DNA of 64,000 nt, taken from the NCBI RefSeq assembly GCF_036711975.1, contig NC_091972.1, forward strand, positions 35,035,001-35,099,000, given 5' to 3'. How positions within the stretch are numbered: position 1 is the first letter of the stretch; each line of letters begins with the position of its first letter. The DNA is from Onthophagus taurus. Its lineage: Eukaryota; Arthropoda; Insecta; Coleoptera; Scarabaeidae. A program made the position numbers and the translations under genes. The notes beneath the pieces were generated by a model. It saw only the letters and a list, made by a program, of their open reading frames with translations, ran no database searches and was not told the DNA's origin. Shown here one piece after another: positions 43,700 to 47,900 of this stretch.

Positions 43700-44130
43700 T
43701 TTATTTGAAAATCGTTCTTCTTCTTCCGGTGTTCCAATCCCTGGTAGGTTTTAACCTGCTCAGTGATTTATTTTCTATCTGTCTTCTCACCAAAGGATCG
43801 TTTCCACCTCTTAACTTCGATTCTTCCATCTTTTTCGCAGTCTGCTCCTTGCTCTTCGTCCCATTGGTCTCCTTCAATTATTCTTGTTGTACTCTCATTC
43901 GTACCACGTGCCCATTCATCCAACTGGATATGGATCTACTTTTAATGAACCTGACAATATCAGCACTGTCTATTAATTGGTCTAATTCGTGATTCATTCG
44001 GCAGCCATCCTCATTTTGTAAAGCTCCAAATATTTTCTGTACAACTTTTCGTACAAATGTCTTAAGAAGTTGTTCGTCTGTGATTGTTAAGGCCTGGGCT
44101 TCGCATCCATATACAAACTTTACTTACAGT
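43700..44130 (-). pseudogene. RTE-type LINE C-terminal remnant (copy 1)
   Basis: Minus strand: VRKVVQKIFGALQNEDGCRM, NHELDQLIDSADIVRFIKSR and WMNGHVVRM, as in the tail after RT in RTE-clade and related LINEs. It continues with a decayed tail (SRLKPTRDWNTG). The RT part lies beyond the inserted element, at 47330-47900. Confidence 0.6.
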
Positions 44131-44888
44131 TCTCTTACACTGCTACTGATAAAATCATACTTCAATGTTTTAATACCAATATACCCAGTGGTTTCTAATT
44201 TCACTGTGGAACATTTTCGGGGTCATTGTCTGGGGGGTGAGAAATTCCAAGTCAGGATGAAAGGACTTGGTCAGTATAGTAAAACCTCCAAAGGGTTTGG
44301 CGTTCTCAGGCCAAACTTTTTTTTTATGACCTTTTATATTTCTTTCCTTACCTTGATGTTTGTTTGCTTAGTTTTTCAGTTATAACTCAAGAATCATTGA
44401 TGATTTCTCATTTCATTCTTCAGCAAAGGCTAAAGCCTAGATAATGCTTAAATAAATAATTTTCATTAATATATCCATGTAAAAAATTAAGTTGGAATAA
44501 TTTTATCGACTGAAATCTTCAAAAAATTGTCAAATTTCGAAAAAAAAATTTTTCTTTGAAAAATAACGTGTTTACTTGAGAGTTCTACGAATTGTAACTA
44601 TAAAAGAGTATTTTAATATAAGTATATAGTAATATAGTAGTACTATATTAGAGAAAGCGAACAATATTTATTTGGAATATAAAAATAATAACTATAACAA
44701 ATATGAATAAATAAAAAGAAAATACATATATAAAACAAATATAAGATAAGTCCAGAAGGGAGACCTAAGTTTTCCTGTCCGAAAAAAAAATCATAAAAAA
44801 TTGATTTTATGAAAATTAACAAAAATTAAGGCCAAACTTAGTTTAAAGAAGAACAAAGTTTATATGTTCATAAACATTGCTTTAGAGT

Positions 44889-45955
44889 TTAGGCCTTTTC
44901 GATGGTGATTCGTTCGCCTTGTTCATCAGATTCAGTGGTCAATTGTCTGCTGAAGTAGTCCAGATGATGATGTAAATAGTTAATTTTCAAGGATATGTGG
45001 ACGCCAATTTTCGAGAACGATGTTAACATCCTTACGACAGAAACATCGTAGTTGCTAGAACGATGCTTTCCCAACAAGCCCTCTATTACTTCTTTAATTG
45101 TCTTCCAAGCATCCAATTCAGCGTCAATCAAAATATTGTTGAATGCGTCACTTTTAATAAGCTTTCGTATATCTGGAGCATTTAGTACGCCTGATGAAAA
45201 AATTAATTTATTGCAATAGTAAATCATGAAAAATATGTTTGGAAAAGTTGGAAGTTTCCACGAAATTGAACAAATGAATGTTATTGTAACTACCTTCATT
45301 AATTTTACTTTTGCTGAGTCTCGGGTAAATTAATTTCAAACACAAGAAAACTGTATCTCGTTTGGCGACAGTTGATGAAATTCTTAACAATTCCAAGTTT
45401 AATGTGCAGTCGAGGCAGCAATATCTTCTCTTTCGGCACCAGAGGTTCACGAATAATATTGGCCATTTCTAACCTGCTGTGCTCTCTATGTTTCCATTCG
45501 TGGCATACATATTGGTCTCCGGTAAATCTTGTGTCCCAATCGCACAAAAAGCACATATATTTTATATAGCCGCTTCGAAGACCGCAAACCAATGCTACAA
45601 CTTTTAAATCGCAGCATGTGCGCCACATATTTTTAGCGTAGTTAACTATTTTTAAAATATGTTGTAGTGTATCATATGTTTCTTTCGTTTCTGTACTATA
45701 CGCGATTGGAACCAAAGGTTTTTCATTGGTCTTATGCAGCAAAACCGCTTTCAAGCTGAGTTTTGAACTGTCAATAAATAATCTCCAGTCATCTACTTCA
45801 TATTTTATTTCCATTGCGTTCATCAATTTTCCTACATTTGAGCAATATGCAGAAGTTTTTTCATCATTCACAACAAATAAACTTTGGAGTGTTGCCTGAC
45901 GACTTCGATAAGCTGTGACTTTCGTACCGGGTGCCAAAAGATTGTTTGATTTCAA
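44889..45955 (-). pseudogene. Orphan transposon protein (left copy, frameshifted)
   Basis: From 45955: DDWRLFIDSSKLSLKAVLLH, RTCCDLKVVALVCGLRSGYI, FLCDWDTRFTGDQYV, LLPRLHIKLGIVKNFI. Then a frameshift near 45370 to FLCLKLIYPRLSKSKINE. A well-formed intron (GTAGTT to TCATCAG, about 45191-45294) joins E|GVLNAPDIRKLIKS to the last part, which ends SDEQGER. I recognise it as a repetitive, usually unannotated protein family seen in many arthropods. Spaced Asp/Glu residues in FIDSS, CCDLK and SDEQGER would suit an RNase-H-like nuclease, but that is inference. The C-terminus after GER is deleted here. Confidence 0.6.
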
Positions 45956-46039
45956 AAACGAAGCCAGCTGGTCTGATTTATGCTGTGTTCATTCCAATTT
46001 AGCAACAATGGAATCAAGCTGATTTTGATTTATTAAAAT

Positions 46040-46715
46040 AGGAATTGTTAAGAATTTCATCAAAACTGTCGCCAAACGAGATACAGTTTTCTTGTGTTTA
46101 AAATTAATTTACCCGAGACTCAGCAAAAGTAAAATTAAAGAAGGTAGTTACAATAACACTCATTTGTTCAATTTCGCGGAAAATTCCAACTTTTCCAAAC
46201 ATAATATAAATTCATTTTTTGCATGATATACGAAAGCTTATTAAAAGTGACGCATTCAACAATATTTTGATTGACGCTGAATTGGATGCTTGGAAGGCAA
46301 TTAAAGAAGTAATAGAAGGTTTGTTGGGAAAGCATCGTCCTAGCAACTACGATGTTTCTGTCGCAAGGATGTTAACATCGTTCTCGAAAATTGGCGTCCA
46401 CATGTCCTTGAAAATTCACTATTTACATCATCATCTGGACTACTTCAGCAGACCATTGGCCACTGAATCTGATGAACAAGGCGAACGCAACCATCAAGTT
46501 GCTATGCCATTTGAAATTAGATAATATCTATGAGATTTTTTTTCAAAGTCATTTTAATAAAAAAACAAATCACAGATACAGAGGAAAACAGTTGCCAAGT
46601 GCAATACTTGCTGAAATTTGCTGGTGGAGCAGACATGTCTTCGAAGACATGGATTATCCTGATGATGAAGAATTTCCAGAAGTTGCAGTAGTCAGCAATG
46701 GAGTCACATGTTGAC
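46040..46715 (+). pseudogene. Orphan transposon protein (right, inverted copy of 3' half)
   Basis: Plus strand mirror of the left copy: GIVKNFI, AKRDTVFLCLKLIYPRLSKS, a diverged intron, then DIRKLIKSDAFNNILIDAEL, YLHHHLDYFSRPLATESDEQ and GERNHQ. Unlike the left copy it keeps the C-terminus: YRGKQLPSAILAEICWWSRH, then an acidic tail (DYPDDEEFPEVAV). The intron acceptor is lost (TTTTTTGCATGATATACG near 46213-46230), so splicing would fail. Confidence 0.6.
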
Positions 46716-47329
46716 ATTATGTGTGGCTTAGAAACTGATGACAGTGATGGTTGCGATAGCAATGACTAGAGCAATGTTTATGAACATATAAACGTTGTTC
46801 TTCTTTAAACTAAGTTTGGCCTTAATTTTTGTTAATTTTCATAAAATCAATACTCTTCGGGCAGGAATACTCAGGTCTCAGGTCTCCCTTTTGGACTTAT
46901 CTTATATTTGTTTTATATATGTATTTTTTTTATTTATTCGTATTTGTTATAGTTATTATTTTTATATTACAAATAAATATTGTTCATAAAAAAATGTTTT
47001 TTTTTTTTCGAAATTTGACAATTTTTTGAAGATTTCAGTCGATAAAATTATTCCAACTTAATTTTTTACATGGATATATTAATGAAAATTATTTATTTAA
47101 GCATTAGCTAGGCCTTAGCCTTTGATGAAGAATGAAATGAGAAATCATCAATGATTCTTGAGTTATAACTGAAAAACTAAGCAAACAAACATCAAGATAA
47201 GGAAAGAAATATAAAAGGTCATAAAAAAAAAGTTTGGCCTGGGAACGTCAAACCCTTTGGAGATTTTACTATATTGACCTAGTACTTTCACCCTGACTTA
47301 AAATTTTTCACCCCCCAGAATGGCTGTTG

Positions 47330-47900
47330 CACTGTGATTTTCTGATGGCTGCACATTGAACAGTGTAGTTGACTGCGTATCACATTTACGCACTCCAGTA
47401 GCAATGCTAAATGTAGATGATAGTTTTACATCAACATTTCTTGCAACCCTAGAACAGGTTAAGGTTGCTTCTATTAATCTGAACGTAAGACGAATTTGAT
47501 CAGATGTTAAGCGGTTAGGGCAAAAGCCGGACTGATATTAGCCCAGAATTTCATATGTATACTCAACTATTTTATTGTTTAAAACACATGTTAATATATT
47601 ATGTGCTATATTTAACAACGTGATTCCTCTGGTCCATTATTCTGAGAATGTCTTATTGATCCATATCGAAATTATTAAATCATATATACTTTTCTATAAT
47701 ACTTCCCTCTAAATTAGACTCCAACGTTATTCCATCACTTTCTGATGCTTTATGATTTTTGAGGGTTCCAATAACATTTTTTATTTCTTCATAGCTAGTT
47801 TGTTAAATGTATGTTTCGATTATATAGTTATCTTCACAAGCGTCGTCATCACGATGACGAGTCTTGACTATATAGTCAAAACATGTGAAAGGAACTTTTA
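47330..47900 (-). pseudogene. RTE-type LINE RT fragment (copy 1, second part)
   Basis: Minus strand shows YQSGFCPNRLTSDQIRLTFR and LLTCVLNNKIVEYTYEILG-like sequence, the QxGFRPNRST(T)DQI block of RTE reverse transcriptases. Matches the same block in the second duplication copy (about 50430-50930). Confidence 0.5.

Follow-up and report, generated by a model that had tools for sequence, protein, structure and literature searches.

A palindromic transposon family in Onthophagus taurus, probably of the Chapaev3 type, with inverted arms that carry the end of its transposase gene

The window, the whole 64,000-nucleotide stretch of Onthophagus taurus DNA analysed here, contains an unstranded 3135-bp element at 44202..47336 that is very likely a Chapaev3-like DNA transposon, in the form of a palindromic deletion derivative. 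The inverted arms claimed in the original prediction are borne out by repeat pairs at 44229-44548/47000-47319 (the longest, 320 nt, 96% identity), 44911-45173/46225-46487 (263 nt, 97%), 45234-45373/46064-46203 (140 nt, 96%) and 44800-44885/46766-46851 (86 nt, 98%), with smaller pieces besides. Since 320 nt match at 96%, the palindrome is not due to chance. Overall, the left arm (plus strand) runs from 44229 to about 45403 and holds a subterminal region, the 3′ untranslated region, an exon 2 fragment, intron 1 and the end of exon 1. The right arm (about 46032 to 47319, minus strand) has the same content, with indels between the two, and keeps the gene end (exon 3); the corresponding stretch of about 290 bp is missing from the left arm at 44910/44911.

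Between the arms lies a single-copy centre (45404..46031, minus strand) with exon 1 from about position 177 of the frame of locus L012, including the motifs FIDSS, DLK and CFLC; PRLHIKLG straddles its left edge. An open frame of 227 aa (45305..45988, minus strand) covers the catalytic region of the transposase, with its 3′ end out of frame, and is followed in the left arm by a predicted intron 1 (45191..45293, minus strand; GT..AG sites placed by inspection). As had been predicted, the C-terminal coding part is present on both strands. On the minus strand it lies in the left-arm open frame with exon 2 (44889..45329), in which an H(4)H motif is damaged to NYLHHH and which ends SDEQGERITIEKA, and on the plus strand in open frames at 46210-46524 and 46412-46714. 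The first of these is the right-arm exon 2 (46210..46524), with HYLHHH (H(4)H) and SDEQGER, and exon 3 (YRGKQLPSAILAEICWW...) is placed by inspection at 46576..46748 on the same strand, broken near its end. The fold-back junction at 46032..46042, where exon 1 position ~177 faces ~390, is common to two other copies, C7_35829907 and C2_23442206. In the window copy the junction sits at a GG identity inside a 9-of-11-bp match, which we take to fit template switching. This copy lacks roughly the first 170 residues, its exon 1 is frameshifted and both coding halves are broken. It is a non-autonomous relic, unable to make a full transposase because of the N-terminal loss, the frameshift and the loss of the ~290-bp gene end from the left arm.

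The ends of the element lie outside the palindrome. Comparison of copy ends places a left tip, CACTGTGGAACATTTTCGGGGTCATTG, at 44202..44228 (plus strand) and a right tip, reading inward CACAGTGCAACAGCCAT, at 47320..47336 (minus strand). The terminus proposed earlier, TCTGGGGGGTGA, is not the end and lies 27 bp (left) and 17 bp (right) inside CAC...GTG ends. In the end comparison of merged loci, agreement among copies runs past the TCTGGGGGG terminus by these same distances, and outside them the flanks diverge. The tips, CACTGTGG... and CACAGTGC..., are common to the window copy and 19 other copies with two known ends, so that 44202 and 47336 are the true ends. The insertion site is spanned by six uninterrupted paralogues of the surrounding repeat (L102-L107; 69-80% identical), in which the empty site reads AATTTTCT in five and AATTCTCT in one. 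This indicates a 4-bp target duplication, ATTT, at 44198..44201 and 47337..47340 (both plus strand); the immediate flanks are TTT and ATT, that is, without an exact 3-bp duplication. The host sequence (43878-44123 and 47298-47537, minus strand) is, as we take it from its motifs, a degenerate LINE-like reverse-transcriptase relic.

Searches of the genome (291 Mb, 33 contigs) returned at least 102 matches to the left arm, at least 44 to the centre and at least 156 to the 227-aa open frame (150 of 769 candidates scored). Twenty copies have two ends, always one L tip and one R tip; two of them contain sequence gaps (5608 bases in C11_9724241, 2340 in C11_31836048), and 13 unpaired ends were excluded, two of L032 type and the others without a partner in the sequence examined. 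An exact 3-bp duplication flanks 18 of the 20 (12 TAA, 3 TTA, 2 TAT and 1 TTT), with TWA in 15 of the 20, A before the duplication in 19 and T after it in all 20. One of the two copies without an exact 3-bp duplication is C13_423153, whose unequal flanks (TTA/TAA) count against the pattern. The fixed-length target duplication that had been expected thus exists as a duplication, but its length is 3 bp in 18 of the 20 copies and 4 bp in the window copy. CAC begins 39 of the 40 ends, the exception being a single right tip with CAT. The original prediction is right that the element is a transposon.

The palindrome is also, as had been suggested, the structure of the mobile unit itself: 18 of the 20 two-ended copies carry exons 2 and 3 of the transposase gene on both strands, and C6_29646474 and C7_39999871 have them on one strand only. 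Among 14 further family loci, which lack an end or are clipped, these exons were found within the sequence examined on both strands in three, on one strand in nine and not at all in two. The result for these loci counts against our reading; the nine one-strand loci include C6_15040, the deepest branch of the tree, which is cut off at position 99 of the first open frame of L012.

To describe the anatomy of the 20 elements we placed on them two open frames of L012, E1 (454 aa) and E2 (198 aa), the latter spanning exons 2 and 3 and itself partly out of frame. In a full copy the order from the L tip onward is inverted gene tail, E1, E2 and finally the R end. The many copies share ends, duplications and motifs, and the inner edge of their arms, which involves the 3′ end of the transposase gene, varies by lineage in at least five classes. 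Class a (C13_423153 and C7_39216284) keeps ~250 bp of unique 5′ region and has a shorter coding arm that reaches only about E2 position 122 or 101. Class b comprises six copies whose edges agree to the base, at E2 position 31 and ~47 bp ahead of the ATG, and three more in which the edge was placed by tblastn (C6_18965471, C8_7398542 and C11_7646625). In this commonest class an inverted copy of the gene tail has taken the place of ~250 bp of the 5′ region. In C1_26211754 (class c) the inverted arm extends into intron 1. Class d is the window copy with C7_35829907 and C2_23442206, which have the common fold-back junction in E1, and class e (C2_24759357 and C7_30456403) has another common junction. 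C11_9724241 stands between the classes, having retained part of the 5′ region.

A tree of the centre was built from 22 rows picked from the 44 centre matches (the longer ones, with three sister-family rows). On it class e groups at 100/99, the class a copies group with C7_23318 at 100/96, and class d groups at 91/77, within which the window copy and C7_35829907 are joined at 97/90. Class b shares a weakly supported group (83/77) with C11_9724241 and C2_23866, which counts against class b as a single clade and leaves it unsupported as one.

A sister family (L017, L019, L020 and L021), at 62-64% protein identity, has a single gene and tips related to those of the palindromic family. Its inverted repeats measure 80-110 bp in the five loci where they were found, and among six loci examined it has 3-bp duplications in four of the five with both tips. 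In L017, L020 and L021 the gene reads towards the L-type tip, whereas in full palindromic copies it reads towards the R-type tip, an observation to be set against our reading. In a more distant family (L029, L030, L031, L033, L034 and L035) the inverted repeats are 243-514 bp at six loci, clipped by the locus edges; in L029 and L034, the two loci checked, they do not overlap the open frames. The short repeats of the sister family and the position of the repeats in the distant family suggest that the coding palindrome belongs to the lineage of the window element.

Because the inner arm edges differ by lineage, and the sister family has short repeats and one gene, we infer that the terminal repeats of the palindromic family grew repeatedly into the gene. 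The driver may have been break repair, as modelled for the Drosophila transposon Galileo in the available parts of PMC3573991 and PMC4168063. If the element was broken, for instance while an excision gap was being repaired, one end would be mended from the other, and copying would continue beyond the former terminal repeat into the 3′ untranslated region and the last exons. The outcome would be an inverted copy of the gene tail left at the 5′ side. In later rounds, helped by their length, the arms could have grown again; the centre could have been inverted in some copies, and fold-back deletion derivatives, the window copy among them, could have arisen.

Several details of the copies bear on this scheme. 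Bases diagnostic for the L as against the R end occupy 14 columns, all of them in the outer ~73 alignment columns, which is what one would expect had the old short terminal repeats survived and the interior been copied from one end to the other before the copies spread. The left end of C11_9724241 has right-type sequence just inside the tip, which is likely a conversion tract. Genes that read towards L (C3_21166889, C6_17639494 and C6_31000912) occur as well as genes that read towards R, which would follow if the arms recombine and thereby invert the centre. The window subtype occurs in three places with the same junction, indicating that the derivative itself has moved, and since fold-back derivatives keep both tips, they were presumably mobilised in trans by transposase made elsewhere. 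We also considered continuing homogenisation of the arms. It is unsupported: mean arm identity within a copy (0.863) is no higher than that of L with R arms of different copies (0.859), the means for L with L and R with R being 0.858 and 0.874.

The arrangement of the copies raises the matter of regulation. Because the commonest class lacks the 5′ region, its transposase gene could be driven only from the final ~47 bp upstream of the ATG or from the inverted copy of the gene tail. An inverted copy of the gene's 3′ end also stands, facing inward, at the other end of the element. From this layout one might propose that terminal-repeat growth has built a self-regulating or self-silencing transposon, which we consider unlikely; if it were so, matching promoters could yield transcripts of both senses, or a long hairpin could form, and the element would limit its own family. 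A related explanation of why the arms persist, to which we give rather little credence, is that a read-through transcript may form a hairpin and so supply small-RNA silencing of the family, as has been suggested for maize Mu killer. The structure does resemble Mu killer, described in the accessible part of PMC3440606 as a partial transposase gene duplicated in inverted orientation, with two copies of the terminal repeat. But Mu killer is a single locus with demonstrated silencing, whereas the present elements form a family of insertions; structure by itself shows no transcription, and growth by repair explains the arms without selection.

A palindrome could also arise if two separate copies inserted head to head and were fused by a deletion, in which case it would have no meaning for the mobile unit. 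The window subtype, with a fold-back junction inside exon 1, speaks for this view, and its junction is common to three copies. The original suggestion of two copies joined head to head does not hold as a general rule, and we reject it, because in all 20 two-ended copies an L tip is paired with an R tip and never with its own kind. Arm edges are common to many insertion sites, palindromic copies have their own target duplications and, directly against such a fusion, junctions common to different insertion sites were found. Head-to-head fusion is therefore very improbable as the origin of the arms, and we retain growth of the terminal repeats into the gene.

The original prediction had described the protein as one without an accepted superfamily name. 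This is not borne out. According to the text available from PMC4079192, the hallmarks of Chapaev3 (for example Merrow, Garfield and Conan) are CAC/GTG termini, TWA duplications between A and T, and the motifs C(2)C, LH and H(4)H, and Chapaev elements in general have 3-4-bp duplications; C(2)C and H(3-4)H are given as common to the CMC(T) clade in the excerpt of PMC12730594. The window family has CAC...GTG ends and a preference for TWA duplications between A and T, and the 4-bp ATTT of the window copy falls within the 3-4 bp of Chapaev. CFLC and PRLHIKLG occur in the 227-aa frame, HYLHHH in the right arm and NYLHHH in the left, and in the relatives L032, L037 and L038 all three motifs are present in order. 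The H(4)H pattern is short, and two further matches to it elsewhere in the 563-aa relatives count against its weight. Candidates for the conserved D, D and E of a DDE core are present, with RNase H matches below threshold only. The relatives here have a transposase of about 560 aa and the gene is spliced, comparable to Garfield, whose 556-aa transposase is encoded in two exons, as is that of Merrow (PMC4079192, same text). The differences are the two introns inferred here, as against two exons in Merrow and Garfield, and the long inverted arms with the 3′ end of the transposase gene. The accessible text of PMC3630058 names Chapaev3 copies in a fly and adds nothing further.

Thus the termini, duplications and motifs place the family, on features rather than on alignment to a named member, as a Chapaev3-like cut-and-paste transposon of the CMC clade with short terminal inverted repeats expanded inwards, an assignment of which we are quite confident. 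With it, an abundant 'orphan' protein can receive the annotation of Chapaev3-like transposase. No match above cut-off came from sequence searches of the transposase frames against Pfam, NCBIfam and PDB, and a profile search to E = 10 listed neither RAG1 nor Transib chains. No relative turned up in viral contigs or in prokaryote genomes, each scanned with two peptide patterns, and the peptide motifs of the transposase had no match as text in the open-access literature. TWA duplications are typical of PIF/Harbinger elements. An element of that type, for which the TWA duplication in 15 of the 20 copies and the 3-bp duplications of Harbinger (PMC12730594, excerpt) might speak, is extremely unlikely in view of the CAC...GTG ends, the C(2)C, LH and H(4)H motifs and the finding of no Pfam DDE family up to E = 1 in nine frames scanned.

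Growth of terminal repeats into a gene is known from Galileo, a member of the P superfamily, and here it is found in an unrelated superfamily. In the parts of PMC4168063 and PMC3573991 available to us, Galileo has many deletion derivatives and long terminal repeats that recruit internal sequence, among it the last 69 bp of the transposase ORF, or in one copy more than 500 bp; in 2014 the absorption of transposase ORF by terminal repeats was called unique to Galileo (PMC4168063). Galileo differs in its 7-8-bp duplications, which are 3 bp here in 18 of 20 copies and 4 bp in the window, and in its THAP domain, for which the nine frames scanned gave no match up to E = 1 and weak zf-AD matches instead. 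In the present family most two-ended copies have arms with a large coding part, and these arms fall into several distinct classes. Among the matches listed from titles and abstract openings of the open-access literature there was no report of coding palindromes in Chapaev3. Together with Galileo, the family suggests that repair between transposon ends leads, as a general result, to terminal repeats that grow into the gene, and its differing states at separate sites, with the non-palindromic sister family as a reference, provide material for ordering the steps.

The related family of L032, L037 and L038 (919-2607) has uninterrupted 563-aa frames. L037 and L038 are 98% identical to L032, and the family is probably young. 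The L032-type right tip is CACAGAGCAACAGTGAT, which follows ATAA, and in one copy it reads CACAGAGAAACA. At the N terminus of the transposase, sub-threshold matches to the zf-AD zinc finger (L029 871-1158, L012 1378-2742 and L034 1204-2766; best E 0.00082) mark a possible candidate DNA-binding domain.
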